From the IMG/VR virus record IMGVR_UViG_3300021963_000319, positions 1 through 37,639 of that record: a stretch of 37,639 nt of DNA, one strand, 5' to 3'. Of this stretch, positions 20,463 to 37,449 are shown piece by piece. The notes beneath the pieces were generated by a model, which saw only the letters and a program-made list of their open reading frames with translations, was not told the origin of the DNA and did not search any database. The position numbers and the translations under genes were made by a program. Every line of letters begins with the position of its first letter. The first letter of the stretch is position 1. This DNA is from a virus.

Positions 20463-21211
20463 TATTGACCAGCCGCCAATCTAGCGATGATGTCGCCATA
20501 GCCGTTGAGTTGATTGTTAATAGCTTCTGGAAGAAGTTCTTCATCCTTCATGATGCTTTCCTGAATAACCTCACCCTTGCCAGCCATATCTAATCCACCG
20601 GTTGTACGAGTGGTGTATGAGCTGCCCTGTTGTGTTGTAGTTGAGATAGATGGGTTTGCTTCTTCTGCTGCGGTTAATGCACCACGAAGACGAGCCTTCT
20701 CAGCTGCTGACATATCACGGCCAAGTAATGCTCGACCTGCTGTGTCAATGATTGCGTTAGCAGTCTTTGGATCTGAAATGTTGAAAGACTTCTGGACCTG
20801 AGTTTTGTCCTGACCTGCCATACCACCTTGCTGATATACCTGAGTCATCTCTTCCCAAGAATAACCTCCAGCAGAGTTTGCTTCCTTTAGTAAGTCAGCA
20901 AATGCTGCTGTGTCTGCAGTACTCCAGAAAGCGGTCTGGAACTCTTGCTTGTTTCCATACAGACCTGCTTGATACATAAGAGTCTTGAGGTAGTTCTGGT
21001 CGTTAGGTGTACGCAACTTAGTGTTCTTGATTTCGATTGCTTCTGCATATGTACCGTTGTATAGAGCATTAAATACCTGACCAGTAGTTGTTATCTTTTT
21101 ACCGTTAGCATCTACTGTTGTTTGACCCGGACGGTATACCTCTGTGTTCTTAAGTGGATACTTAACCTGAGACGAGGACGAAGCCCCGGCTACTGGTGCA
21201 ATAATTTCCAT
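20462..21211 (-). CDS. Virion protein candidate, 249 aa
   Basis: A 249-residue protein: a flexible start (VAGASSSSQVKYPLKNTEVY), a helical middle with LMYQAGLYGNKQEFQTAFW and ANAIIDTAGRALLGRDMSAAEKARLRGAL (about 150-178), then a Ser/Thr linker and a helical end. The ATG at 21211 is fused to the stop of the 1953-aa gene (TAATG). It belongs to the four-gene block of large virion proteins. The GRxMSxxEKAxLxxAL block resembles helical segments found in phage tail-tip or injection proteins, but I cannot name a family. Confidence 0.65.
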   Translation of the reverse strand: MEIIAPVAGASSSSQVKYPLKNTEVYRPGQTTVDANGKKITTTGQVFNALYNGTYAEAIEIKNTKLRTPNDQNYLKTLMYQAGLYGNKQEFQTAFWSTADTAAFADLLKEANSAGGYSWEEMTQVYQQGGMAGQDKTQVQKSFNISDPKTANAIIDTAGRALLGRDMSAAEKARLRGALTAAEEANPSISTTTQQGSSYTTRTTGGLDMAGKGEVIQESIMKDEELLPEAINNQLNGYGDIIARLAAGQ

Positions 21212-24200
21212 TAGTTATTCCCTGTCTCGGTGGCGAATACACGCCAGTACATAACGCTGAACTCTGGATATTGAGCAATGATTCTGTAAGCCTCTGTGTC
21301 TAACCATTCAGCTACATTGGCTACTGACTTAGCAGTTAGTGTCTTGAAACCTGCAGCTGCTGCAGAATCCATTGCCGCCTTGCGATACTGCAAGAACTCA
21401 GCAAGACCCTTACCAGCTTCAGTTGCTGCATACTTCTTATCGTTGACTGCTTGTTCAAGTTCCTTGACCAAAGTCTCACGAGGTACACCGGCAGAACGGA
21501 AGTCAGGCTGACCACCGAAGTCATCATCCAATGCAGCCTTACGAGTCATGTAAACTTCATGAGCAAGCTTTGGATCTTCGCCATCACGAATGGCGATTGC
21601 TTCGTCAGATTGCAACTTAGCCTTACGAGCTGTGTATACATAACGAGCTGCTTCCATTTGCATTTCTGCTGGAGTCAACTTGAAACGCTTACCTGATTGT
21701 TCCTGCCACTTAGCAAACTCTGTTGAGTATTGTCCACCGGGGAAGAAGAGGGCAAACGCATTTGCATACTTAGTCGCTTCTTCACGGTTATTTGTGTAGA
21801 ACTTCCAAGCATCATCAGTAGGTTGGATACCACCACGGGATCCAGATACCAATGCAAAGAGTGCTGAGTCACCGTACTTATCTGCCCACTTGGCAACTGC
21901 TAATGCATAGTTGTCTGGGTTGTTAGCACGGATAGTCAGGAAGTCATTGACCATCAAAGACTGAACATGTAGCTCGCCTGTCTTATCCTTAGCAAGGATC
22001 TGAGGTGCAATAGAACCCGGAGCAATGTTAGCTGTGATACCACGCCACAAAGCAAGGACTCGGTTGAGCTTTGATGCATCATCAAGCAACTTCTCAGTTG
22101 CTGTGTTGTCCAATGGGAACTCACCGTACTTACCTGTGGTAGCAAGGTAGGTCATCAATGGACGAAGGGTAGATAGATTCTTACCCTCATAGGAGTCGAT
22201 TCCAAGGCCATAGAGCAGTCTCTGGGCCCATGCTGGTGTGAATGTCTCAACGATTCCAGTCTTGGTCTCAGGGGCCCCGAATGGGTAAATAATGTCACGC
22301 AGTTGATCTGCGATCCAACCATTCTGGTTCTGAATGACCTTACCCAAAGAAAGCTGAATAGCAGGTCCTACACCCGGAAGGATCTCGTTAGAGAAGGCCA
22401 TGTTCATCGAAGGAATAGAGATCGATGTAGGCATGCCCGGAACCTTGGTGCCAGATGTAATCGATAGCATGCCACCGAGGATGTCTCCGGCCAACGGAAT
22501 AATCATGCGAGGATCACCGTAGGTTGGATCCTTGTAGATAAAGCCTTGGCTTGGGTCATCCCAGTTAGCGTTAGTCCACTCGTAGATTACGCCAGTCTCA
22601 GGATGTGTTAGGAACTCGTAAGCATTAGATGCCTTGTAAACACGAGCCTTACCCTGTAGACGGAATGTGTTAGCCACATCCTTTGTAATCAACTTAGACC
22701 AAGTGCCAAGTGTGTTAGACCATGCTGAGATAAACGGTGCTACCAAACGGAAAGCTGCTGCATACTGCTTCTGTCGCATTGCATCGTAGTAGAGCTTGCC
22801 TACTTCATCAGCTGCTAATCCTTGTGCAAGTTCATCCATCTTTGCTAGATCGAATCCTCGATCATCAAGAGTCTTGATTCCCTCACGCATACGAACTAAC
22901 GCAGGGTTAGGGAACGATGCTGGCTTACCAAAGAATGTAAGTCCACGAAGTTCCTTCTCAGCCTGAGCAAGAGCCTTCTCAGCATCTGCCTTGTTCATAA
23001 GGTTGATGTTCTCTGCGATCTTCTTCCAGTACTGCTGACGGTACTCAGGACCCAAAGACATACGCTTTTCAACTGATCCAGAGAAACGGAAGAACGCAGA
23101 TGCTGCCTTATCCCAAGTTCCCTTGAGTAGTGGTGCTTGTGCAAAGTCTTCTGCTGGCAAACGAAGCTGACCGATAACACGGCTAACATCTTCTGTTGCA
23201 CGGTACTCGTTAAGAATACGACCAAGCCAGACATCCTTAGATGTCTTACCTGCTGGATCAAATGACTGACGAACACCCTTGGTATCTACCATTGGACGAC
23301 CAGCAATAAAGTCAAGAATCTCTTTGCGACCAACGCTTACTTCATCGATACCCTGCTTAGCAGTATCTAGATAGAAACGAACGGCTTGCTTAGCAAGATC
23401 AATATCATCTGAGAGCATGATTGCACGATCGACTTCGTTGACCTTAGCAATCTGTTCACGAAGGGCATTACCCTTCTTAGTCTCAAACATAAAGTCTGTA
23501 ACGATGTCTGTGTAGTTGTCAGCAAGGGTCATGCCCTGTGCTTCCTTCATTGCAATAAATTCTTTTGCTTCAGGGAACCATGGCTTGAACTTACCGTTAG
23601 CCATTACGCCACCGTCCAATCCACCTGCAGCCAAACGAGCTACCTGTGATTCACGGTACTGCAAGATTGCAGATCCCCATGCACGGTTGAACTGGCGTTC
23701 AGTAGATTCGACGAAACGCATACCTGTAGGTAGTAGACCTGTACGAGATCCTGCACCAACACCCTTACCCATTGAACGAGCCATCATCAAGGCATATTTG
23801 TCAGCATCTGCAAGGGCTGCACCCTTGAATCCTGCTGAGTCAGTTTCCTTAACTAAGTCACGGAATGATGTATTAAAGATGTTGTTGTCTACTCGTGAGA
23901 ACTTAGTTAAGTACTGACGAGCTGCAGACCCTTCAGGGTTAGCCATCATCATCGCAATAAACTGCAATGGGTGTGAGAACAATGTCGTCGATCCTGCAAG
24001 GAACGAACGAATCTGCATATCGAGAATGTTTCGCTGGATGTATGAAATACGACCAACGAGAACTGTCTGCTTGAAGAAAGAGTCTAGTGCTTCTGTTGTG
24101 AAAGCTCTGAACTGCTGAGCAGTTTCTGATTTCGATAATATGTTTCGAGTGGTTCCGGTAAGTTGCCGCATTGCGTTAGTGTCCGGCCACTTGACAAAAT

Positions 24201-27072
24201 TTGTAAGTTGAGAATCAAGGAACGGATCCAAACTTGAGAAAGTAATCTTCTTTCCATCGAGAACCATTTCCGCAGTAGTTTGTCCGTCACGAAGAGCTTG
24301 AGCCAAGAAGTTGCGATGCATATCTTGTTCACGCTTAAATACACGAGCAGCATCCTGAAGTAGTCGAGCCTGTTCCTCATTGAGGTTTGGTAACTGCTCT
24401 TTGACGATACCTTGGATGGTGTCGATAAAAACATTGAAGCGTTCTGATGTGGTTGTTGAATCCATCATACGCTTAGTCATTGTTGCACGAAGCTTCTCAG
24501 ATCCACCGAGGAATGGGATGTTATCGTGCAGCTGCTTTGTTAGCTTGTCTACATCGTCAAGATGTAGCAGATCCTTCTCAGGAGCAAAGCGAGTAAACTG
24601 TGAAAGAACCTTGTTATCACGGAAAGCTTTAACAGTTGCTTCTGCAGCCTTAGATGTGTAGAACTTATTCATAGTTCCCCACATGATGCCAAGCTCACGA
24701 GGCTGGTATACTCCAGGATTATGTGAGATTGCACGACCTGCTTCTGCAGCAAATGTCAGCTTTGTACCACGAGATAATTCAAGTCCTACTTCACCAGCAA
24801 GGATACCGACAACTTCTTTTTCGGTCTTAGCTGCTGCTAGTAGACGAGCAGTATTGATGGAGATGTCTCCATTCATTGCTCGCCATAGATCGTAGTACTG
24901 GTTATCGTCATAGTGGTTAGCAATAAACTTAGCAACATTCTGGCCAAGCTTTCCAAACATCGCATCTGATGCAGCTTGGAAGTTGATGATCTGCTTGCCA
25001 TCGATGGTTGTTAAACCAAAGAGTGCTTCTGTTGCTACTTGCTGACGACCCTTTGCTGTCTCGAGCATAGCCTTAGCTTCTGCCTGAGTCTTAGCATGAT
25101 CCTTAACAAACTGTAGGTTAGATTCGTATACAGCATTAACACGATCGTATTCAGCCTGAGCTGCGTTCTTTAGCTTGCCAGCTTCTTCGATCTGCTTATC
25201 AATCTGTGCAATGCGTTCACGAGCAGTTAGCTTAGGTGCTACTGCACCTTGGCTAAGGTTCTGTACCTGCTGCATAATTGCTTCAGGTGTAGTCAAAGGC
25301 TGAACACCTAAGTCACGAATATCAGGAGATGCAATCGCTGCTTCTCCACGCTTAGCAAACTCAGATACACGAGCAGGGAATGGATCTACTGCACGAGGGA
25401 AGTATGCGTAACCTACTGTGCCTACGGCACCACGAGTTCCGCCAATGTTCTCAAAGCCTTGGAATCCAAGCTTCTCGTATGCTGCATACAAGTTATCAAT
25501 CAAGCCAGCCTCTTGTGCCGCCTTAACGATCTCTGCATGAGTTGCACCGGGTACATCGATCTGATCGATTACACGCTGGATGACATCATCTGATGCACCA
25601 GCTGCAGTTGCTTCATCAATAAACTTAGAGCCAAGTTCATTACCAAGACGAGTAGCCTGTGGTGAATCTCCAGCCTTAACAAGTGCAGTCCACTTAACTA
25701 ACTGTGGCTTCTGCTTTGCAGCTACACGAACAACAAGTTCTTCTCCACCACGAACACCAAGTGTTGCAGGACGATCACCCTTCTTAAGGGCAGCCTCTGC
25801 AGTTGTGTGAATCAATCCCGGTGCTAGTGCTTCTTGCTTGCGAAGTTTGTCTGCATCGGCAACGATGTTGTCGAAAGATGTTGAGTCAAGTACACCTTGA
25901 ACTTCTGCTGCTCGTTGAGAGTTGTTCAACTCCAAGCGATACTGCATGAACTGTTCTTCGGCTCGCTTCTCACCAACAAGACGAGCAGACTCTTGGTCTC
26001 CACGCTTTAGTTCTGTGAGATAAACATTACGGCGTTGATAGAGTTCACCGAACTCTGCTTCAACTAAATCTGCAGATGCCTTTGCATTGTAGACAACATC
26101 AGAGAGTCTTTCGATTTCTGGCATCATCTCTTCTACATCTAATGCATGCTTTGCTATATCGCCTTCAAGCATTGCTGCATTGCCAGATGCAATACGCTGT
26201 TCTGCTCTCCACTTGTTAATGTCTGCAGCTACATCTTCGTACTCACGACGAACTGCCTTAAGTGGTGCAGCCTTTGCTTCTGCTGCACGAGCTGCTGCCT
26301 TTGGACCGATACGAAGTGCTGCACCCTCTTTACTAATCTTGATAAGACCAACACCGGGTACATAAGTCAATGGGTCAGCAGCAAGGTTAAGAATGAATCC
26401 AGATACAGCTTGGAATGTACGAGCTGCTTTAGTTTCTGGGTTATCGTAAAGCTTCTGTGTTAATGCAGATGCATATGTCCATGGGACATTGCCCTTCATC
26501 TTTGGCCCACCAGCAATTTGAGACTTAAGCATGGCTTTGCCAACTGCAGAGTTAAGGTCTACACCAAGGAAGCCTGAACCTAGATCTACCTTACCTGTTG
26601 TAAGGAGTGACTTTAATGCCTGACCTGATTGTGTTTCATCATATGTATTGAAAACGGTTGGTACACGACCAGCGGCAATATTACGAAAGGATGCTTCAAG
26701 CAACTCAAACGGAGTTGATAGTGCCATGAAAGCAGTACGAGTAAGCGGTGCTAAGAAGTCAGCAGGTGAATCCTTCTTTGTCTTTCCTGCTTCTTTAATT
26801 TTTGCAGCAGCCTGAATAGCAGCGTTGCGTTGCTGATCTAGATAAGACTCAGCATCTAATGTTGCAGCTGCGTTAGCAGTAGGCCCATAAGGTGCAGCGT
26901 TTGATTTAGCCAACGCTAATACAGTACCTGCTCCTGCTGCTGGATATGTCTTAGCAAGTGTAGATACCTGCTTAGCAAACTGTGGGTTTAAGTATTGCGA
27001 CTCTTGTGCTTTACGCCAAGCATCGTACTCTGGAGTTCCTTGCTTCGGAACTGCAAATGGAGACTCTGCCAC
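21211..27072 (-). CDS. Giant internal virion / DNA-ejection protein, 1953 aa
   Basis: The largest gene in the window, about 16 percent of it, starting at GTG 27072 inside TAGTG. Early parts include a predicted helix pair around 105-130 and FILNLAADPLTYVPGVGLIK (226-245), a phrase I know from very large phage virion proteins. A coiled-coil zone follows (about 255-400), then a largely helical body. A later segment has amphipathic and hydrophobic stretches (PLAGDILGGMLSITSG and nearby). Giant helical proteins packed near the portal, used to build a channel and help DNA cross the envelope, are known in podoviruses (T7 gp16 is the functional model). No lysozyme or other enzyme motif was recognised by eye. 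Confidence 0.72.
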   Translation of the reverse strand: MAESPFAVPKQGTPEYDAWRKAQESQYLNPQFAKQVSTLAKTYPAAGAGTVLALAKSNAAPYGPTANAAATLDAESYLDQQRNAAIQAAAKIKEAGKTKKDSPADFLAPLTRTAFMALSTPFELLEASFRNIAAGRVPTVFNTYDETQSGQALKSLLTTGKVDLGSGFLGVDLNSAVGKAMLKSQIAGGPKMKGNVPWTYASALTQKLYDNPETKAARTFQAVSGFILNLAADPLTYVPGVGLIKISKEGAALRIGPKAAARAAEAKAAPLKAVRREYEDVAADINKWRAEQRIASGNAAMLEGDIAKHALDVEEMMPEIERLSDVVYNAKASADLVEAEFGELYQRRNVYLTELKRGDQESARLVGEKRAEEQFMQYRLELNNSQRAAEVQGVLDSTSFDNIVADADKLRKQEALAPGLIHTTAEAALKKGDRPATLGVRGGEELVVRVAAKQKPQLVKWTALVKAGDSPQATRLGNELGSKFIDEATAAGASDDVIQRVIDQIDVPGATHAEIVKAAQEAGLIDNLYAAYEKLGFQGFENIGGTRGAVGTVGYAYFPRAVDPFPARVSEFAKRGEAAIASPDIRDLGVQPLTTPEAIMQQVQNLSQGAVAPKLTARERIAQIDKQIEEAGKLKNAAQAEYDRVNAVYESNLQFVKDHAKTQAEAKAMLETAKGRQQVATEALFGLTTIDGKQIINFQAASDAMFGKLGQNVAKFIANHYDDNQYYDLWRAMNGDISINTARLLAAAKTEKEVVGILAGEVGLELSRGTKLTFAAEAGRAISHNPGVYQPRELGIMWGTMNKFYTSKAAEATVKAFRDNKVLSQFTRFAPEKDLLHLDDVDKLTKQLHDNIPFLGGSEKLRATMTKRMMDSTTTSERFNVFIDTIQGIVKEQLPNLNEEQARLLQDAARVFKREQDMHRNFLAQALRDGQTTAEMVLDGKKITFSSLDPFLDSQLTNFVKWPDTNAMRQLTGTTRNILSKSETAQQFRAFTTEALDSFFKQTVLVGRISYIQRNILDMQIRSFLAGSTTLFSHPLQFIAMMMANPEGSAARQYLTKFSRVDNNIFNTSFRDLVKETDSAGFKGAALADADKYALMMARSMGKGVGAGSRTGLLPTGMRFVESTERQFNRAWGSAILQYRESQVARLAAGGLDGGVMANGKFKPWFPEAKEFIAMKEAQGMTLADNYTDIVTDFMFETKKGNALREQIAKVNEVDRAIMLSDDIDLAKQAVRFYLDTAKQGIDEVSVGRKEILDFIAGRPMVDTKGVRQSFDPAGKTSKDVWLGRILNEYRATEDVSRVIGQLRLPAEDFAQAPLLKGTWDKAASAFFRFSGSVEKRMSLGPEYRQQYWKKIAENINLMNKADAEKALAQAEKELRGLTFFGKPASFPNPALVRMREGIKTLDDRGFDLAKMDELAQGLAADEVGKLYYDAMRQKQYAAAFRLVAPFISAWSNTLGTWSKLITKDVANTFRLQGKARVYKASNAYEFLTHPETGVIYEWTNANWDDPSQGFIYKDPTYGDPRMIIPLAGDILGGMLSITSGTKVPGMPTSISIPSMNMAFSNEILPGVGPAIQLSLGKVIQNQNGWIADQLRDIIYPFGAPETKTGIVETFTPAWAQRLLYGLGIDSYEGKNLSTLRPLMTYLATTGKYGEFPLDNTATEKLLDDASKLNRVLALWRGITANIAPGSIAPQILAKDKTGELHVQSLMVNDFLTIRANNPDNYALAVAKWADKYGDSALFALVSGSRGGIQPTDDAWKFYTNNREEATKYANAFALFFPGGQYSTEFAKWQEQSGKRFKLTPAEMQMEAARYVYTARKAKLQSDEAIAIRDGEDPKLAHEVYMTRKAALDDDFGGQPDFRSAGVPRETLVKELEQAVNDKKYAATEAGKGLAEFLQYRKAAMDSAAAAGFKTLTAKSVANVAEWLDTEAYRIIAQYPEFSVMYWRVFATETGNN

Positions 27073-29633: not shown

Positions 29634-31487
29634 TTATGAGATACGACGATCTGCGGCCCATTCATCAAGGTTGATGACTTGTCGTTTCGCAGCATCTGCT
29701 CGTGTTAAGAATTCGTTCTTTACGAACTTTCCACCGTACTCACCAAATTGGCAAATCTCTCTAGCTCTGATTTCACAGAACCACATTGCCATTACTAAGT
29801 CGGTCTTGTTCTTTGTTTCCGGAGACCAAGTGATTAACTGGTCAATCAGTAACCGAATACCCTCGGTTCTATCTGATGGAAGATGTAGCAAGTTATCTCT
29901 ATGATGCTTGCCATTAGATTCAATCGTTCCGAATAAAGCAGCCATAGCTGCTACACCGAAACCGACATCCCACTTGTTTCGTGTTGTTGTGTGTTCCCTA
30001 AGAAGCACACCACGGTTTGCCATCCATTGCCGTAGATTCTCATCCTGTGTCAGGTAGCCCTGAAATGCATTACGCTCCACGATCCATTCGGACGGGTTGT
30101 ATTTTTCGGTCATTGTAGTGATGAGATCACGGATTGCTTGTGGCGATGGGCGAGTAATAGTTGCCGCATCCAAGATATATCTTTTCTTGCGACGACGGTC
30201 AATAGCCATTACTACCGCTGCCGTGTCACCAACGATTGCTGGATCGAGTCCGGCAACGATAGTGAGACCTTCTGTTGTTTCGGGATGACCCGGATTGCCG
30301 GGGATCAATGGCCCGACCATACGCATGCGATCGATAGATCCTCGAACGCACTCTTGTGAGAATACTGAATCTTCGTCGGTGTCCGCTTGCTGGTAAACCA
30401 TCGACCAAGTTTTAGGATCCAGAGCTGCTCTACGCATTGAGAGGTTCTCGCCATCCCAACGAGGGTAGAGACCGTTCTCATCTGGTTCTTCATCTGAGCC
30501 CTGCCAAGGGCGATCAGACTTAGGCCATAATGTCTTCCAGTCTTTTTTGTCCTCAGCGAACTCTAAGACTGCTGGCATCGAAAGATATGTCCATGGTGAC
30601 TTACCGGTTGGGTAGCGTTCACCGTTACGCAGTTCACGGTACAGATCGATTGAATCAACTCGAGTACCTAGAACCAAAAGCTTGCCTGTAGGCCCCAGAC
30701 GGGTCAGGACTTCCTGTTGAATCCAACGAATATGCTTCTCGTACTCATGAGCATTTGACATGGTAACGCAGTCGTCGAGAATGATTAAGTCGGCACGGGC
30801 ACCGTAAACCTGACCACCAATACCGATGGCTTGGATAGTCGGATCTTTCTGATCTGAGTCACGGAGTTCGTCACCTAGATAAACCGTGGTTGCTTGCCAA
30901 GTAGCAGACTTGGACTTGAAGCCTGAACCAGCCGCGTAAGCGAGCTGGAGCTTCTGCCAGCCCGGGTGGGTTAGTCGCTGCTTAATGGCGTAGATAAATT
31001 CTGTTGCTTTAGATTGAGACTTGGAGACGATCATGATACGGACATTTGGATCCATACAGATTCGATACACCGGGTAGTCAATCGAGGTGGTCATTGACTT
31101 GGCATGCTCGGGAGGAACATTGACCAGTACATACTGTTGACGGCCTTGCTCAAAGGTCATGGATGGGTGCATCCATTGTGGCTCGTTACCCTCTAGCAGA
31201 TCAATGATGTTCTGCTGGTGAGGGAAGGTTTCAGCCTCTAGGTATTCCTTACGGAACTCCTTGAAAGGTAGGGTGAGTGACTCCGCACTCTGTATTCTCC
31301 CCTTTGAAGTACGGGCAGCTCTAACCTTGTCTACGGTCTCTTTGAACTCTTTGTCCGTAGAACGGTAGTAGTCAAACAGCTTGTAGCTACGACCGACCTG
31401 CATCATGGCATCTTCGACCGTACAGCCCTCAGTCAGAAGGCGTATGACCTTCGACTTGATCTTGGCTGTCTCTTCTCTTTTGCTCAT
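29634..31487 (-). CDS. terL: Terminase large subunit with N-terminal HTH-like region
   Basis: A 617-residue packaging motor. The ATPase shows a Walker-A-like VNVPPEHAKSMTTS (122-135, Lys130), Walker B DLIILDD (233-239) and a coupling motif LVLGTR (271-276). The nuclease part begins with VAGLDPAIVGD (Asp415), followed by later conserved acids (IVERNAF; TDLVMAMW). The first 60 residues, KVIRLLTEGCTVEDAMMQVGR then YKLFDYYRSTD, look like a helix-turn-helix of small-terminase type. No separate small terminase was found beside it, so DNA recognition may be built in. The ATG is preceded by GAGAGG and by a hairpin. Confidence 0.92.
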   Translation of the reverse strand: MSKREETAKIKSKVIRLLTEGCTVEDAMMQVGRSYKLFDYYRSTDKEFKETVDKVRAARTSKGRIQSAESLTLPFKEFRKEYLEAETFPHQQNIIDLLEGNEPQWMHPSMTFEQGRQQYVLVNVPPEHAKSMTTSIDYPVYRICMDPNVRIMIVSKSQSKATEFIYAIKQRLTHPGWQKLQLAYAAGSGFKSKSATWQATTVYLGDELRDSDQKDPTIQAIGIGGQVYGARADLIILDDCVTMSNAHEYEKHIRWIQQEVLTRLGPTGKLLVLGTRVDSIDLYRELRNGERYPTGKSPWTYLSMPAVLEFAEDKKDWKTLWPKSDRPWQGSDEEPDENGLYPRWDGENLSMRRAALDPKTWSMVYQQADTDEDSVFSQECVRGSIDRMRMVGPLIPGNPGHPETTEGLTIVAGLDPAIVGDTAAVVMAIDRRRKKRYILDAATITRPSPQAIRDLITTMTEKYNPSEWIVERNAFQGYLTQDENLRQWMANRGVLLREHTTTRNKWDVGFGVAAMAALFGTIESNGKHHRDNLLHLPSDRTEGIRLLIDQLITWSPETKNKTDLVMAMWFCEIRAREICQFGEYGGKFVKNEFLTRADAAKRQVINLDEWAADRRIS

Positions 31488-31497
31488 TGTTTCCTCT

Positions 31498-31512
31498 CGC
31501 GGCTTCGCCGCG
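31498..31512 (-). promoter_or_regulatory. Hairpin at the terminase ribosome site
   Basis: The minus-strand leader has CGCGGC-GAA-GCCGCG (6-bp stem, GAA loop) directly before the GAGAGG ribosome site (31493-31498) of terL; the two overlap by one base. Such a stem would influence ribosome access and could act as a translational switch or a site for a regulatory protein. Confidence 0.5.
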
Positions 31513-31645
31513 TGAAAGCGAAAGATTTTTTCATTGGGTTATGCGGTTCGATTTAGAACAGACTACTGGGCAAAAACTAGGCTCTAGGATCGCCTTCGCT
31601 CCCATGGGGTCGCTCCGGCTCCCTAAGAGCCGGGCTGTAGTCGTC

Positions 31646-31666
31646 TATATTCCTTGTCGGAATATA
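31646..31666. repeat. 8-bp perfect inverted repeat TATATTCC/GGAATATA
   Basis: TATATTCC (31646-31653), TTGTC, GGAATATA (31659-31666). AT-rich symmetric arms with a 5-base centre look like an operator for a dimeric repressor, or a hairpin. No transcript end is implied. Confidence 0.5.
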
Positions 31667-31679
31667 TCCTCCTACTATA

Positions 31680-31715
31680 GATAAGCCGGGAAATGGGGTG
31701 CTTATCCCGCTTTTT
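31680..31715 (+). terminator. Possible plus-strand terminator-like hairpin
   Basis: GATAAGC (31680-31686) pairs with GCTTATC (31700-31706), followed by CCGCTTTTT. There is no plus-strand gene to its left, so it may instead block stray antisense transcription or be part of a control structure. Confidence 0.3.
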
Positions 31716-32029
31716 GCCCTGTGATCTGTGACACATCTACTGTATATAGTAAAAGTGCAGGTCAGACGGCATGTCGCGGAGCTAAATCCTATCAAAAATT
31801 TTTAAGTGGGTACATATAAGGGGTCCCCTGCGGCATTTATAGCACCCGGGTCAATTTGCAGGGGGGTGTGTTGCAGGGCTTACTTTACATAATGGTTATT
31901 ATCGGCGGTGCTTAATGTCCGTTTTGTACCGGGCTCGCGGCCATGCATGCCGGCCGGTACTAGGTAGCTTTTAAAGATCGGCCGTTAAGTAATCGCCTAG
32001 TAATACGGGCTAGATCTCGGGGGATGATC

Positions 32030-32160
32030 GGGGGCATGGCATGAGATCGGGAGGGCATGAGCTAGGCCATGGAATGGGATAGCTATCGAGGGGCAAGGGA
32101 TCCGGTGGGATAGCTCGAGGATCTGCCGGGGTCATGGGATCCGGTAGGCCATGGATCCGG
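32030..32160. repeat. Cluster of 10-11-bp direct repeats
   Basis: Exact pairs: TAGGCCATGGA at 32063-32073 and 32145-32155; TGGGATAGCT at 32075-32084 and 32106-32115; GGGATCCGGT at 32097-32106 and 32136-32145. GGGCATG also occurs twice near 32032-32058. The mixture of tandem-spaced short words about 40-70 bp before a promoter fits iterons or repressor sites. The extreme word bias of this region makes chance repeats more likely than usual, so this is tentative. Confidence 0.45.
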
Positions 32161-32198
32161 GCCATATTTACCCGGTAGAAATTCCCCGGTTTCAATAG

Positions 32199-32227
32199 TT
32201 GACATTGCAGAAATTCGGAGGATAGTT
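32199..32227 (+). promoter_or_regulatory. Promoter of the plus-strand island operon
   Basis: A perfect TTGACA at 32199-32204, 17 bases, then ATAGTT at 32222-32227 (TAGTTA with 18 bases is the alternative). It lies about 50 bases upstream of the first island gene and is the best -35 element seen in the window. Confidence 0.55.
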
Positions 32228-32278
32228 AGCTAGTGAGCCGGGATCTAGCTCGGCCGCTTATTAGATAAGGATCAGATT

Positions 32279-32662
32279 ATGAGCGAGAATAAAGAAGAAT
32301 TTAACGGGTGGCATAACCGCGAGACATGGGCCGCCGCTTTACATATTGGTAACGATGAGGGGCTTAACGATCAAGCGATCGAGCTAATGGAGGCCGCATT
32401 CGATCGCGGATCTCTCGAGGGTGAAACCGTAACCGATCGCCGCCGGGCCGGGATCGCTAGGGCCGGGGCTCGCCTCGATGAATGGATCGAGTCTCTATTT
32501 ACTCGCAAGGGTTACGAGGGAGAATTTGGGGGAGATTGGCCGGCCGCATTGGCAGACATGGCCTCCGATATTGGATCTCTCTATCGTGTCGATTATTACG
32601 AGATAGCCGAGGCATTACTCGAGGATAAGCTCGCCGCATTCGATACCGAGGCCGCCGCATGA
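32279..32662 (+). CDS. DUF7249-like early protein
   Basis: A 127-residue acidic protein starting from the repeated leader AAGGATCAGATT. The motif NGWHNRETWAAALHIGNDEGL (9-29) is the signature of small phage proteins with GWxNxETWxxxLxIxNDExL, which I recall as DUF7249. The rest is helical (IELMEAAFDRG; ARLDEWIESLF; YYEIAEALLEDKLAA). Function is unknown; such genes are usually in early regions. DNA usage is striking: eight GATC sites in 384 bases, no CTG triplet in any frame, and Asp written GAT in ten of eleven cases. The next gene starts in its stop (ATGA). Confidence 0.8.
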   Translation: MSENKEEFNGWHNRETWAAALHIGNDEGLNDQAIELMEAAFDRGSLEGETVTDRRRAGIARAGARLDEWIESLFTRKGYEGEFGGDWPAALADMASDIGSLYRVDYYEIAEALLEDKLAAFDTEAAA

Positions 32663-32832
32663 GGGCCGCCCGTAGGATCTTAAGCTCGCCGGTATATCGT
32701 CGCCGGTGGGCCTACCTAATCGCCGGGATAGCTATCGCCGCCGCGATCCTTTATCTATCGGGCCGCATATGGTGGACGGGCTCGGGCTATTGTTTCGGTA
32801 CCTTGCTCGAGTGCATGGGGCCGCAGCTGTGA
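32659..32832 (+). CDS. Small single-pass membrane protein, 57 aa
   Basis: Begins at the ATGA that ends the previous gene. The product has a strongly basic N-terminus (MRAARRILSSPVYRRRW), a hydrophobic helix YLIAGIAIAAAILYLSG at about 19-35, and a short outside part with two cysteines (45 and 52). Inside-positive topology is clear. Its TGA in turn overlaps the GTG of the next gene. An alternative reading frame here gives a longer protein with no features; the coupled starts, membrane helix and uniform codon style favour this one. Function unknown. Confidence 0.65.
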   Translation: MRAARRILSSPVYRRRWAYLIAGIAIAAAILYLSGRIWWTGSGYCFGTLLECMGPQL

Positions 32833-32981
32833 GCGAGTCTAGGGGTAGCCTACGCCTCGCCTTGGTGATCTATTACCCGGCCGAGCAGATCCCTAACGGG
32901 GATCTAGCTCGCCGCCTCGAGGGGCTCGAGTGGTGGATCACCGATCGGGAAACCATCCCACCGATTACCCGGGAGAATTAG
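32829..32981 (+). CDS. Small hypothetical protein with GTG start, 50 aa
   Basis: Starts at GTG 32829 within CTGTGAGC, overlapping the upstream stop by four bases. The 50-residue product has a beta start (LRLALVIYYPAEQIPNGD) and an amphipathic helix DLARRLEGLEWWITDRE. A longer version in the same frame starting at 32706 is possible but would run under the membrane-protein gene. No family recognised. It ends in an intergenic segment with a strong hairpin. Confidence 0.55.
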   Translation: MSESRGSLRLALVIYYPAEQIPNGDLARRLEGLEWWITDRETIPPITREN

Positions 32982-32998
32982 GGCCGCCGGCCCGGTGG

Positions 32999-33020
32999 GG
33001 CCTCGAGATAGCTCGGGGCC
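32999..33020 (+). promoter_or_regulatory. Hairpin before the second island gene group
   Basis: GGCCTCGAG-ATAG-CTCGGGGCC forms a 9-bp stem with one wobble pair. CTTGCC follows, then the palindrome GGTTACCGTAACC (33030-33042) and the AAGGATCAGAAC leader. A similar block precedes the gene at 34064. No U tract, so a control or processing element is likelier than a terminator. Confidence 0.5.
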
Positions 33021-33029
33021 TTGCCGGGT

Positions 33030-33042
33030 GGTTACCGTAACC
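33030..33042. repeat. 13-bp palindrome GGTTACCGTAACC
   Basis: Six-bp arms GGTTAC/GTAACC around a central C, 31 bases before the next ATG. The size and symmetry suit a dimeric DNA-binding protein. Confidence 0.4.
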
Positions 33043-33073
33043 GCCGCAATACTTAACCGATAAGGATCAGAAC

Positions 33074-33436
33074 ATGACAATAACACGCGATCAATTCGAG
33101 ACTATCGCCGAGGCTAACGGGGTGGGAGATATCGCCCGATCATTACTCGATAGCGGCAAGCTCGAGATCATAGGGGTATCAGATACCGGGCCGCGATCAA
33201 TTAGCTTGATCGCCCGGGATATTATGCGATCAGATTGGTACCGATCTAACGCCTCTATATATGCTCGAGATTATGTCCAAGCGATGGAATTTTTAAACCG
33301 AGTAACCGATCAATATTTCGCCGATACCGCCGAGAGTGTGATCCGCTACGCCTTAAGCAACATGTCAACATGGCGAGGGGATCAAGCTCGAGCGATTAAG
33401 GCCGAGCTTAAGGATCTACTTAAGGGGGTTAAGTAA
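33074..33436 (+). CDS. Hypothetical island protein, 120 aa
   Basis: A 120-residue, mostly helical protein with leader AAGGATCAGAAC directly before ATG. Segments: ITRDQFETIAEANGVGDIARSLL, then a beta hairpin LEIIGVSDTGPRSISLIARDI, RDYVQAMEFLNRVTDQYF and a basic C-terminus IKAELKDLLKGVK. No cysteine cluster, membrane segment or enzyme motif. It shares the island word bias. It is the first of four coupled genes ending at 33969. No family recognised. Confidence 0.7.
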   Translation: MTITRDQFETIAEANGVGDIARSLLDSGKLEIIGVSDTGPRSISLIARDIMRSDWYRSNASIYARDYVQAMEFLNRVTDQYFADTAESVIRYALSNMSTWRGDQARAIKAELKDLLKGVK

Positions 33437-33437
33437 C

Positions 33438-33719
33438 ATGGGCCTTAATTTTGCCACCGATCTAGCCGATACCATGCCGCTACGCGATGCGATCGGTATC
33501 CATCTACGCAATAACCACTATCCACCGGTACCCCTATCGATGGTAACGCCTTGCATTCGAGCGATCGAGGCATGCATCGAGAGAGATTGGGAAAGATTGA
33601 TCGAGCTACCGGATGGTATTAAGTGGCGTAACCAGATAACCGCCCCGGCTAATGCGATCGCCGAGGCTCACCATCTAGGGCCATGGATAGATCTCGAGCC
33701 TTGGGAGATTGAAGAATGA
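33438..33719 (+). CDS. Conserved actinophage small protein (GLNFATDLAD type)
   Basis: A 93-residue protein: MGLNFATDLADTMPLRDAIG, HLRNNHYPPVPLSMVTPCI, AIEACIERDWERLIELPDGI and AIAEAHHLGPWIDLE. The HLRxNHYPPxP...AIxA...W-x-x-I-E-LP-G...EAxHL pattern recurs in small mycobacteriophage and related actinophage early proteins as I remember them. Function is unknown. It has an AAGGGGG ribosome site and its stop overlaps the next ATG (ATGA). It supports an actinobacterial host range for the source of the island. Confidence 0.75.
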   Translation: MGLNFATDLADTMPLRDAIGIHLRNNHYPPVPLSMVTPCIRAIEACIERDWERLIELPDGIKWRNQITAPANAIAEAHHLGPWIDLEPWEIEE

Positions 33720-33859
33720 GAGATCGATGGAGAATTACGATTGAGATCGATACATATGATGGAGATCCCCGGTATTGGGATTGGTCTAAGCTGATCGATG
33801 ATCCGATCAAGGTTACCGATAGCTCATTCGCCGGCCGAGTATTGGAGGATAAAGAATGA
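33716..33859 (+). CDS. Small hypothetical protein, 47 aa
   Basis: Starts at the ATGA ending the previous gene and ends in an ATGA that starts the next. The product MRDRWRITIEIDTYDGDPRYW followed by DWSKLIDDPIKVTDSS has a beta strand and a mixed tail. It is too small for a family call, but the four-base overlaps on both sides, uninterrupted island codon style and a TIEIDTYDGDP start like other small phage proteins support it as a real gene. Function unknown. Confidence 0.6.
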   Translation: MRDRWRITIEIDTYDGDPRYWDWSKLIDDPIKVTDSSFAGRVLEDKE

Positions 33860-33969
33860 TGCCGCTTAACGCTTATCTATCCGGCAAGGTAGTACCGATC
33901 TGCCGCGAGTGTGATAAAGAATTATCACCGGATGAAATTGGTTATGGCCACGATTGCGAGGCAGCTTAG
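33856..33969 (+). CDS. Mini zinc-finger-like protein, 37 aa
   Basis: Coupled by ATGA to the gene before it. In 37 residues it has CREC (16-19) and GHDCEA (31-36), with PDEIGY between, giving three cysteines and one histidine in zinc-ribbon-like spacing. Very short CxxC...HxC proteins are common in actinophage early regions. It may bind a host protein or nucleic acid. It is the last of four coupled genes before a hairpin-containing gap. Confidence 0.6.
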   Translation: MMPLNAYLSGKVVPICRECDKELSPDEIGYGHDCEAA

Positions 33970-33987
33970 CCGATAGCATGATGGTGG

Positions 33988-34012
33988 GGCCCGGGGCTAG
34001 ATCCTCCGGGCC
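33988..34012 (+). promoter_or_regulatory. Hairpin before the third island gene group
   Basis: GGCCCGG (33988-33994) pairs with CCGGGCC (34006-34012), 11-base loop, then TTGCC, echoing the block at 32999-33030. About 40 bases on comes the leader GAGGATCAGATT and the ATG of the Gp88-like gene. No U run follows. Confidence 0.5.
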
Positions 34013-34063
34013 TTGCCATGGTGGGATCGGCTCACCTATTTACCCCCATGAGAGGATCAGATT

Positions 34064-34885
34064 ATGGGATCATTAATTCAGACACGAGAGAGGGATCCGC
34101 TTAAGGATCCGGGAAAGATATCGGCCACCGATATCGCATTCGCTAGATCGGCCGCCGCTGATAGCTTTAAAGAATACGGGCTCGGGGTACCAAGCTACTT
34201 AATCCGGCCATCTAGTACCGAGAAATTAGGGCTCGATGTCCCCGGGTTTAACGCGATCGCCGGGTTAACCTTAACGCCGGCCACCATGGGCCCGGCTACG
34301 ACATGTCAATTTTTTAAACATTGCCAAGCCTTATGCGTGTTAACGCATGGCCGAGGGGCATTCGATAGTGTGATCCGAGCTAGATCCGCAAGGGTTAAGC
34401 TATTGATGGATCAACCCGAGGCAGCAGCTATCCTATTAGCTCATGATGTAGATCGATTTGCTCGGACATGGGATCGATGGGGCCTCCGATTGAATGTCGC
34501 CTCCGATCTAGCATGGGAGAAGGTATCGCCATGGCTTATCGATCGAGCGATCTCCGGTGGTGGCGTGATCTACGATTACACCAAGCGATGGGATCGAGAT
34601 CCCGAGCCTATGCCGGGATACCGTCTAACCTTTTCCGCCGCCGGCCATTCGATCGATCAGATTAAGGACCGAGTATCTTCCGGGGGTAATGTCGCCATGG
34701 TTTTACCCGTAGCTAAGGGATCTCCGGTACCTAATACCTTGCATGGCCTACCCGTAATCGATGGGGATATCCACGATCTCCGGGCCTTAGATCCGCAAGG
34801 GGTTATCGTAGCTTTACGGGCCAAGGGTAAGGCTATTAACACCATTGGATCCAAGCTTATCTATGAGATTGGGGTACCGGCATGA
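34064..34885 (+). CDS. Gp88-like actinophage protein
   Basis: A 273-residue protein of the group known from mycobacteriophages as gene product 88-like (I recall DUF7227). It shows FNAIAGLTLTPATMGPATTCQ, then C81, C87 and C91 in a C-x5-C-x3-C arrangement, RSARVKLLMD, LRLNVASDLAWEKV and VIYDYTKRWDRDP, then GYRLTFSAAGHSIDQIK and GDIHDLRALDPQGVIVALRAKGKA near the end. The clustered cysteines suggest a metal or iron-sulphur site. Biochemical role is unknown to me. It is the largest gene of the island and shows its full word bias. Ribosome site is the repeated leader GAGGATCAGATT. Confidence 0.85.
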   Translation: MGSLIQTRERDPLKDPGKISATDIAFARSAAADSFKEYGLGVPSYLIRPSSTEKLGLDVPGFNAIAGLTLTPATMGPATTCQFFKHCQALCVLTHGRGAFDSVIRARSARVKLLMDQPEAAAILLAHDVDRFARTWDRWGLRLNVASDLAWEKVSPWLIDRAISGGGVIYDYTKRWDRDPEPMPGYRLTFSAAGHSIDQIKDRVSSGGNVAMVLPVAKGSPVPNTLHGLPVIDGDIHDLRALDPQGVIVALRAKGKAINTIGSKLIYEIGVPA

Positions 34886-35028
34886 CATATGGATGCGGAT
34901 CTTATACATGCGTTACTTGCTACCCGTACACCTATCGATGCGAGCATCTAATAGATTACGCTGAGCCTATTCCTAACGGTCAACCGATCCCCGAGTGCGA
35001 GCATGAGGAGATAGAATGCCTACCGTAG
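34882..35028 (+). CDS. Cys-rich mini protein, 48 aa
   Basis: Starts at ATGA overlapping the Gp88-like stop. Cysteines at 5, 10, 13, 20, 39 and 45 with two histidines (22, 41) give a pattern GCGSYTCVTCYPYTYRCEH...CEHEEIEC, suited to one zinc site. The next gene begins 13 bases before its end. It probably cooperates with the Gp88-like protein or is a small host-interaction factor; this is inference from coupling only. Confidence 0.6.
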   Translation: MTYGCGSYTCVTCYPYTYRCEHLIDYAEPIPNGQPIPECEHEEIECLP

Positions 35029-35141
35029 CCCTGTTCATATTGACATTCTTCACGCTACCCTTGGGCATGAGTGAAGGTCAACCATTACTAGTCATGATCC
35101 CGGTACTCGCTTGGATCTTATCGATATTAACGAGGGGATAA
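35016..35141 (+). CDS. Small hydrophobic membrane protein, 41 aa
   Basis: A 41-residue protein with two hydrophobic stretches: TVALFILTFFTLPLGM (3-18) and LLVMIPVLAWILSIL (24-38), ending TRG. It overlaps the Cys-rich mini gene by 13 bases and ends one base before the Rpf-like gene. Being next to a wall-active, possibly exported enzyme, it may be a holin-like or export partner. It is too short for a family call, but coupling and clear hydrophobicity support it. Confidence 0.6.
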   Translation: MPTVALFILTFFTLPLGMSEGQPLLVMIPVLAWILSILTRG

Positions 35142-35142
35142 C

Positions 35143-35553
35143 ATGAAACCAAATATCATCATCGCTATTGTATCTCTCGGGGCCGGCCTAGTGCTGGCCC
35201 CGGGGGATATCTCTCCGGCTATCATTCCACCGATCACCGTTACCGAGAGGATCGAGGTACCCGTATCTCATGATCCTACTCTTGAAGATCTTCCTTTAGC
35301 TTGGCAGAAAGTTGCTAAGTGTGAATCCTCGGGTCGCCTTAATGCCGTAAGCGGCAAGCGTGGTCAGTTCCAAGGGCTATTCCAAATTGAATACCCTCGA
35401 ACATGGGTAGCACATGGTGGATCAATGACAGTACCGCCGAAAGCGGCATCCATGATGGAGCAATTCTGGGTAGCTCTTCACATCTATGTTGATCGTGGCT
35501 CTAAGCCATGGCCATACTGTGGTAAGTTTCTTAAAGAACATTATGGTAAGTAA
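35143..35553 (+). CDS. Rpf-like transglycosylase (lysozyme fold) with N-terminal anchor
   Basis: A 136-residue protein. Residues 4-20 (NIIIAIVSLGAGLVLAP) form a signal peptide or anchor. From 54 on is a resuscitation-promoting-factor/transglycosylase domain: WQKVAKCESSGRLNA with catalytic Glu61, FQGLFQIEYPRTWVAHGG (76-93) and the closing KPWPYCG. It would cut glycan strands of actinobacterial peptidoglycan from outside the membrane. The DNA changes style inside the gene: codons before about 35275 have the island bias, and those after look like the rest of the phage. It may serve as second lysin, virion wall enzyme or superinfection factor. The plus operon ends just after it. Confidence 0.85.
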   Translation: MKPNIIIAIVSLGAGLVLAPGDISPAIIPPITVTERIEVPVSHDPTLEDLPLAWQKVAKCESSGRLNAVSGKRGQFQGLFQIEYPRTWVAHGGSMTVPPKAASMMEQFWVALHIYVDRGSKPWPYCGKFLKEHYGK

Positions 35554-36921: not shown

Positions 36922-37039
36922 CTTCTCCCCATTGGTCATCTTCTATCTCAATGATCGCATCCATTACGAACTGTGTCACAAAGTACATGGCTGTAATTAC
37001 AAGAGTTGGAATCAAAAAAATAATAAGCTTCTTCTTCAT
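36914..37039 (-). CDS. Small membrane protein, 41 aa
   Basis: Starts at ATGA that ends the DUF1599 gene and overlaps the start of the sigma-like gene by eight bases. The product is MKKKLIIFLIPTLVITAMYF... : basic N-terminus, one hydrophobic helix (5-25), and acidic tail EIEDDQWGED. Typical of tiny phage membrane peptides; function unknown. An anti-sigma or host-envelope role is pure speculation. Tight overlaps on both sides make a real gene likely. Confidence 0.65.
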   Translation of the reverse strand: MKKKLIIFLIPTLVITAMYFVTQFVMDAIIEIEDDQWGEDV

Positions 37040-37449
37040 TGCTTATTCTCCGGCCACTTCCCACGCTGTACCATCATGGCAATGATGCAATAGTTAGCTA
37101 GATCCTTGAATGAATCCTCAATGGATTCGTGTTCAGGGTTGTGACCTGATGCCAGTAGATTCTTCAAGCGTTCCCACTTGTCACCCATACGAACCATCAG
37201 TCCATTGATCGGGCCACCGTATGCGTTGTTGATATTGCCCGGGCCGTAGTCTCTTTGCTTAGAGATCAACAGGTTGCCAAGCTCATCAATGATGTCCCAA
37301 GAATCGGCGATGAACTTATCCATCATCGGGTCTTTGGTAACTGCACCTTTATCCATAGGTCCAAAGGCGTTTGCTTTATCTCTAGCACTTGGATTCCGGA
37401 TGATTCGATTAAACTCTTCATTAACTCCATGTCGCTCATACTCACTCAT
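37036..37449 (-). CDS. DUF1599/MazG-like nucleotide-modification-associated protein
   Basis: A 137-residue protein whose helical core has KQRDYGPGNINNAYGG (64-79), MVRMGDKWERLKNLL (85-99) and ESIEDSFKDLANYCIIAM (108-125). This order, K-x-x-DYG...R-x-x-DK-x-x-R-L...ES-x-x-D-x-x-x-DL, is that of DUF1599 (also called nucleotide modification associated domain 1), an all-alpha group related to MazG/dUTPase-like pyrophosphohydrolases. It may hydrolyse or sense a nucleotide during phage DNA synthesis. It overlaps the Toprim gene by eight bases. Confidence 0.82.
   Translation of the reverse strand: MSEYERHGVNEEFNRIIRNPSARDKANAFGPMDKGAVTKDPMMDKFIADSWDIIDELGNLLISKQRDYGPGNINNAYGGPINGLMVRMGDKWERLKNLLASGHNPEHESIEDSFKDLANYCIIAMMVQRGKWPENKQ

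Follow-up and report, generated by a model that had tools for sequence, protein, structure and literature searches.

A conserved, palindrome-rich DNA spelling in a phage gene cassette beside the terminase gene

We analyzed a 37,639-bp IMG/VR record of a lake virus (IMGVR_UViG_3300021963_000319, here called the window), which carries near its right end a sharply bounded island (31,930-35,290, the interval used for all counts) where palindromic tetranucleotides are in strong excess and CAG/CTG and GAC/GTC are depleted. The island occupies a block of about 11 small plus-strand genes that begins beside the gene for the terminase large subunit (TerL), while the structural genes, encoding TerL, the portal and the major head protein, lie on the minus strand. 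Palindromes of the restriction type would be expected to disappear from phage genomes, yet this cassette, which we call type A, keeps several of them at 2-7 times expectation, and they are its most conserved words throughout a clade of related phages. Direct selection on the short words of the cassette DNA is well supported, because the spelling is conserved in diverged relatives, is independent of codons and protein, is symmetric between strands and specific to the cassette, and because words are purged from cassettes beyond what is seen in their own backbones.

Word bias of the island

Six palindromic tetramers were raised together when compared with dinucleotide-preserving shuffles. GATC occurred 83 times against 33.0±4.7 (z 10.7), CATG 38 against 11.8 (z 8.9), AGCT 30 against 10.2 (z 6.6), GGCC 46 against 24.2 (z 5.1), TCGA 41 against 21.9 (z 4.7) and CCGG 49 against 28.0 (z 4.6), giving a sum of 287 against 129 (z 15). 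CTCGAG (11 against 1.1, z 9.2) and CCATGG (7 against 1.2, z 5.6) were also in excess. The initial annotation of this DNA had listed GATC, CTCGAG, CCGG and CATG-type words as enriched, and these held; GGATCC (6 against 3.2, z 1.6) and CTAG (1.4-fold), which it had also listed, were raised only weakly. Its remark that CTG is nearly absent was borne out, with 8 copies against 33.9 expected (z -5.6), and CAG was low as well (15 against 33.2, z -4.2). Relative to base composition, GATC stood at 6.3-fold and CAG/CTG at 0.21-fold in the island, versus 1.44-fold and 1.61-fold in the backbone (1-31,500). The first cassette gene does contain eight GATC and no CTG, and two GATC fall in the first 385 bases of the capsid gene, a minus-strand gene outside the island, as had been counted before. 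GCGC and ACGT have zero copies anywhere in the window.

To place the edges, we used an order-3 model of the islands of other phages versus the window's own backbone. It returned a single maximal segment, 31,930-35,290, scoring 863 bits, while the best backbone segment of island length scored -791 bits; the edges previously put at about 31.9 and 35.28 kb were thus accurate. All twelve plus-strand genes had been said to share the bias, and this needs two corrections: we count about 11 genes, and the last of them, a transglycosylase gene (35143-35553), is island-like in its first third only.

The bias is a property of the double-stranded DNA. When codons of the island genes were shuffled among synonymous positions, GATC fell from 55 to 32 and CTG rose from 3 to 23. 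Synonymous shuffling thus erases much of the bias, which means that word choice extends across codon junctions. Under the order-3 model, the non-coding leader of the cassette (31930-32278, plus strand) scored highest per base (98 bits per 250 bases at 32,000); there the dyad excess at the second base pair was 2.04-fold, and the trinucleotides depleted in the island were low on both strands. Codon usage as the cause is contradicted by the synonymous shuffling and by the bias in this leader. Across the island the dyad excess covered only the two innermost base pairs, apart from a slight excess at the third, so the signal consists of tetramers and not hairpins, and a general dyad signal was rejected. 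RNA structure was rejected too, as folding energies in the stretches tested were inside the control range with no consistent signal, and Rfam returned no match.

The palindrome excess is a signal distinct from the CAG/GAC depletion. When a maximum-entropy 4-mer model was constrained by the depleted asymmetric words alone, it gave GATC at 1.6-1.8-fold against 6.8-fold observed in the pooled islands; constrained by the palindromes alone, it gave CAG at 0.88-fold against 0.23-fold observed. Neither signal reproduces the other, so the palindrome excess needs a cause of its own, and we rejected both the idea that the excess is a by-product of purging and its converse. A rule by which all asymmetric sites are purged also failed, since known asymmetric restriction motifs, a set compiled from general knowledge, stood at 0.97-fold overall in type A, with GAAGA and GAATGC enriched. 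The vocabulary of type A is compressed: the number of distinct double-strand 6-mers was 0.64-0.71 of that in shuffled sequence (0.66-0.68 in the island described here), versus 0.80-0.94 in the rest of the genome.

Relatives and alternative cassettes

Scans with TerL, GP88, phrog_13953 and DUF7249 gave more than 70 loci. The type A island was found in ten further non-redundant IMG/VR cassettes, 11 counting the window; one more locus flagged as island-bearing (L064) was excluded from the count for its different profile. Where flanks were present they belonged to the same clade, with TerL 84-96% identical and the same right-hand neighbors. Word profiles of type A cassettes correlated with one another at rho 0.73-0.84 and with the backbone at about -0.1.

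This agreement persists in pairs that have diverged far. Distant type A pairs were 70-75% identical in GP88 and about 42-48% identical at 4-fold synonymous sites, and despite this synonymous divergence each GP88 gene carried 16-26 GATC. In aligned, diverged islands TCGA (0.73), GATC (0.71) and CCGG (0.70) had the highest retention of all tetramers (median 0.48), while GATC retention in the backbones was ordinary (0.41, median 0.40). Where GATC was lost it had mostly become GATA in islands and GACC in backbones, and the transition/transversion ratio differed modestly (0.67 in islands, 0.84 in backbones). Top retention of these palindromes together with replacement by GATA is predicted by selection on words, and not by mutation bias or by the decay of imported DNA. 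A spelling kept over such long evolutionary time points to selection on the DNA letters and not on the proteins.

The window TerL is 43-44% identical to annotated Streptomyces phage terminases and 50% identical to those of the nearest isolates, Planktophila phages LanE43-AprE7 and AprF5 (E7/F5; OX376640/OX376641, our L079/L080; PMC10202952). Judging from these relatives, the clade probably infects abundant freshwater actinobacteria, the Nanopelagicales (acI). The initial annotation had proposed recent transfer from a phage with another mutational or modification regime. The spirit of that proposal stands, in that the cassette obeys a DNA-level rule of its own, but recent transfer is not supported, given conservation at near-saturated divergence (4-fold identity down to about 42-48% among at least ten relatives) and confinement to one clade. 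We found no palindrome-rich cassette outside this TerL clade among the loci scanned, and no donor with the type A profile: Spearman rho was -0.17 to 0.13 for acI host genomes and -0.41 for phage E7, and the profiles of Gordonia phage Waits, Xena and two mycobacteriophages were also unlike the island. GP88 relatives at 27-41% identity in viral contigs lacked the bias. The comparison with related phages and host genomes that had been called for therefore shows a spelling shared by type A relatives and distinct from that of acI genomes.

Sister phages with TerL 85-96% identical carry other cassettes at the same locus, namely type B (L002 and L029), type C (L011 and L017) and type D (L014). In cassettes B-D GATC is not enriched and stands at 0.3-0.5-fold where listed. 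The peptide LEGLEWWITDR is encoded as CTCGAGGGGCTCGAGTGGTGGATCACCGATCGG in the window and as CTAGAAGGCTTAGAATGGTGGATAACCGACCGA in L002, with different words in each of A, B, C and D. Each type also has its own purged words. TTAA is absent from the L010 (A) and L011 (C) cassettes versus 47-50 copies in their backbones; TGCA is absent from the L014 (D) cassette and tolerated in its backbone; GCWGC is purged from B, C and D, and CCTTC, GANTC and ACTGG from A (CCTTC and GANTC nearly to absence), all of them tolerated in the respective backbones. GANTC and CCSGG run in opposite directions: types B, C and D have raised GANTC and low CCSGG, and A has depleted GANTC and raised CCSGG. The vocabulary of cassettes C and D, like that of A, is compressed below their own backbones. 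As a separate observation, GANTC is overused 2.4-2.9-fold in cassettes C and D (L011 5650-9750, L014 100-4200).

The backbones of the clade have absences of their own. ACGT, GCGC, CACTG/CAGTG, CCWGG, CCCGC, GACGC and GAGCTC/GAGCAC/GTGCAC (most of GWGCWC) are wholly or nearly missing, so that about ten restriction-like words are purged in one phage clade, a pattern that would be expected of restriction avoidance. In E7/F5, GATC, CCGG, CATG, GGCC and AGCT are entirely absent over 39 kb; these are five of the six words enriched in type A, and the chance of all five falling among type A's top six of sixteen palindromes is about 0.0014, a post hoc figure. E7 and F5 are close relatives and count as one independent case. 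Their locus upstream of TerL is poor in ACGT and CAG/CTG relative to their own genomes, and in E7 it encodes ArdA (PF07275, E 1e-8). Two other GP88-bearing contigs (L046 and L047) have GATC at about 3-fold throughout, zero AGCT, CATG, CCGG and ACGT, and near-zero GCGC.

Explanations and known systems

The explanation that fits best, although we hold it tentatively, is that the island is an early anti-defense cassette whose spelling is selected by host defenses that read sequence. The island would be a divergently transcribed anti-defense or take-over cassette of this siphophage clade, and its DNA would have to survive first after entry. Host restriction-modification and related defenses would then act more strictly on the cassette than on the rest of the genome, which would be exposed only once the early proteins work. 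The forbidden words of type A would be mainly non-palindromic or W-centered (CAG/CTG, GAC/GTC, CCTTC, GANTC, ACTGG), and palindromic tetramers that the hosts do not restrict would form its permitted vocabulary. Palindromes read identically on both strands and hence yield fewer distinct double-strand words, which may leave a new defense specificity less to target; this is the weakest link. The position beside TerL and the conserved non-coding stretch between the two are at most suggestive of first entry and expression. Besides the evidence for selection on words, this explanation draws on the words purged from cassettes and from clade backbones, on the ArdA gene in the E7 locus and on the compressed vocabulary of types A, C and D. 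A more specific version, possible although doubtful, is that the clade keeps exchangeable early cassettes in alternative, actively maintained DNA "dialects", and that the palindromic one is selected because a defense or protective factor recognizes the identity of words, or the symmetry of the two strands, in the entering DNA. If so, spelling would be an anti-defense trait apart from gene content.

Several results weigh against the early anti-defense explanation. Purging alone yields GATC at 1.6-1.8-fold and not 6.8-fold in the maximum-entropy model, and the compressed vocabulary is weak in cassette B and was not seen in E7/F5. We infer early entry and expression only from position, orientation and homology to ArdA and GP88, and among the products of the window's type A cassette, an acidic DUF7249 protein and unknowns, we recognized no anti-restriction family. 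Methylases were few in the host set (16 genomes retrieved with an acI 16S probe, one titled Omnitrophota being left out): PF00145 was present in 4 of 16, PF01555 in 2 of 16 and PF02086 in 0 of 16. LanE-43, the host of E7, had none of these three families, with a PF02384-type gene as its sole match, though E7 lacks five palindromes. In the Lake Biwa metaepigenome no methylated motif was found in hgcI (acI) bins (PMC6329791). Restriction-type genes do occur in the acI genomes, a point in favor of the explanation; they include one methylase closest to M.HhaI among solved structures, and two genomes carry type III-like Mod genes with asymmetric targets; acI defenses thus exist, but they are sparse and strain-specific.

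Modification, which the initial annotation had also raised, is a serious rival because it offers a natural reason for palindromes, although we regard it as rather unlikely to be the answer. The palindromic tetramers would be substrates of host or phage modification, with dense modification of the early region resisting nucleases, and biased repair at methylated palindromes could build up sites, as has been proposed for HIP1 in cyanobacteria. The favored words are self-complementary tetramers, as used by methylases, the excess needs a positive cause, and highly iterated palindromes elsewhere have been linked to methylases (PMC4390886). Protein scans of the window found no DNA methyltransferase family; they found instead a glycosyltransferase and a DUF1599 "nucleotide modification associated" protein. 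These lie at 572-1312 and 37036-37449, both on the minus strand, and could hint at DNA base modification. Besides the absence of a methylase from the scanned window proteins, the scarcity of methylases in acI genomes and the lack of methylated motifs in Lake Biwa speak against modification (PMC6329791), six different tetramers would require several enzymes, and genome-wide modification alone would not restrict the excess to one cassette.

An unlikely alternative is repeated import from an unsampled phage or plasmid lineage that has this bias and in which the cassette does most of its evolving. Phages whose terminases are nearly identical differ in which of types A-D they carry at this one locus, so exchange takes place there, and the island profile is unrelated to those of backbone and hosts. 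However, all type A cassettes found lie in this clade with the same neighbors, and the genes that A has in common with B/C/D are written in different words. The bias is also missing from the GP88 and phrog_13953 homologues of mycobacteriophages and Gordonia phages and from the GP88 relatives at 27-41%. A mutation or repair process biased by sequence context in this region, such as biased mismatch repair, would account for strand symmetry and for a bias in coding and non-coding DNA alike, but it is improbable given that sister cassettes at the same position lack the bias and that island GATC is replaced through a transversion (GATA) and not through the backbone's common transition (GACC); the modest difference in transition/transversion ratio counts slightly against it too. 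A cause at the level of codons, RNA or protein (tRNA supply, RNA structure or RNA-cleaving toxins) is largely refuted and very improbable. Island codon usage is strongly unlike that of the backbone, but the bias spans codon boundaries, peaks in non-coding DNA and is strand-symmetric, and folding energies are within controls.

Unexplained word excesses have been described in other phages. In cluster E mycobacteriophages, the last 5 kb of phage 244 form a segment with outlier tetranucleotide usage that is not repeat-derived, and in subcluster B3 GATC and GGATCC are over four-fold in excess (PMC4841201). The window resembles cluster E in having a multi-kilobase segment at the genome end with its own tetramer usage. 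By the published description the members of cluster E are more than 97% identical over this segment, too similar for its maintenance to be tested, whereas the type A profile persists where synonymous sites are nearly saturated. In B3 the excess extends over the whole genome, unlike that of the window, which is confined to one cassette. In our clade six palindromes are raised together, and alternative cassettes of other spelling occur. Cyanobacteria likewise show an unexplained excess of highly iterated palindromes, HIP1 and its relatives, some of which are based on GATC or CCGG (PMC4390886). HIP1 is a single word of 8 bases that is found across bacterial genomes and associated with orphan methylases; the window instead has several 4-base words confined to 31,930-35,290, a single 3.4-kb phage cassette, with no methylase family among its scanned proteins.

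The early, first-step-transfer region of phage T5 is free of restriction sites. The leading regions of conjugative plasmids, which are used first, carry anti-restriction genes (PMC11602122). Our cassettes resemble these first-used regions in that words missing or nearly missing from them (TTAA, TGCA, CCTTC, GANTC) are tolerated elsewhere in the genome. As to anti-restriction genes, the E7 locus has ArdA, and type A has an acidic DUF7249 protein and unknowns. Our cassettes differ in that type A adds a strong palindrome excess (287 against 129) that avoidance does not predict, and in that first entry is only presumed here. The right end of cluster A (L5-like) mycobacteriophages, known for early transcription, has the same adjacent pair of GP88 and phrog_13953 at the genome end, but no word step. 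E7/F5 share with the clade a TerL at 50% identity and a locus of small genes upstream of TerL (including ArdA in E7) that is poor in ACGT and CAG/CTG, but their genomes lack GATC, CCGG, CATG, GGCC and AGCT, the words that type A enriches. In the limited set of open-access papers searched we found no description of a cassette with an actively maintained multi-palindrome dialect and alternative spellings at one locus. The system makes it testable whether host defenses act on how early phage DNA is spelled, apart from the genes it carries, and cassettes A-D together with E7/F5 form a comparison set for probing the defenses of one of the most abundant freshwater bacterial groups.

Genes of the cassette and its surroundings

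TerL, the left neighbor of the cassette and the marker that defines the clade, is encoded at 29634-31487 on the minus strand. The non-coding stretch that follows (31488-31929) contains blocks kept across all cassette types in an alignment of TerL upstream regions from nine phages of types A-D, and is a candidate packaging site and/or TerL leader. Within it, 31488-31760 is a conserved and possibly structured leader before TerL, with blocks identical between cassette types and zero Rfam matches.

The cassette genes are all on the plus strand. A repeated gene-start leader, AGGATCAGATTATG (repeat family D4), lies at 32268-32281, with further copies at 33063-33076 and 34053-34066. The first gene (32279-32662) encodes the DUF7249 protein (PF23907, E 2.4e-10), 127 aa long and acidic with a net charge of -16. 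It is followed by a small membrane-like protein (32659-32832) that has differently spelled homologues in cassettes B and D, by the LEGLEWWITDR protein (32829-32981), whose core recurs in B, C and D, and by the phrog_13953 protein (33074-33436, E 2.1e-15), homologues of which adjoin GP88 at the right ends of cluster A mycobacteriophages and also occur in Gordonia phages. A small acidic protein of no assigned function (33438-33719), a small protein with a weak phrog_12516 match (33716-33859, E 3e-4) and a small Cys-containing protein with a NinF-like match below cut-off (33856-33969, E 5e-4) precede GP88.

The GP88 family protein (34064-34885) is Cys-rich and 273 aa long (PF17338, E 2.3e-24; phrog_1617, E 1e-50). 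It passes the curated PF17338 cut-off with 87 bits against 24.4, and has the invariant Cys and the DYxK/VIDGDIHD motifs common to GP88 proteins. Its predicted model (pLDDT 84) weakly suggests a TIM-barrel-like fold; the top structural match, to a viperin-like radical SAM enzyme, reached Z 5.1 and did not stand out clearly from matches to unrelated TIM barrels, and Foldseek gave zero matches at E < 0.001, so no function was assigned from fold. GP88 as the cause of the word bias was rejected, since homologues occur in phages without it. GP88 was not found in the 16 acI genomes, and control genomes gave no match either.

Downstream lie a small MTYGCG protein (34882-35028), which is Cys-rich and also occurs in cassette B, and a small, putatively holin-like membrane protein (35016-35141). 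The last gene (35143-35553) encodes the transglycosylase-like protein (PF06737, E 4.3e-12), and the right edge of the island (35,290) falls inside it, upstream of the conserved domain. On the minus strand, a protein of 1,953 residues with no Pfam or PHROG match is encoded between the portal and capsid genes (21211-27072).

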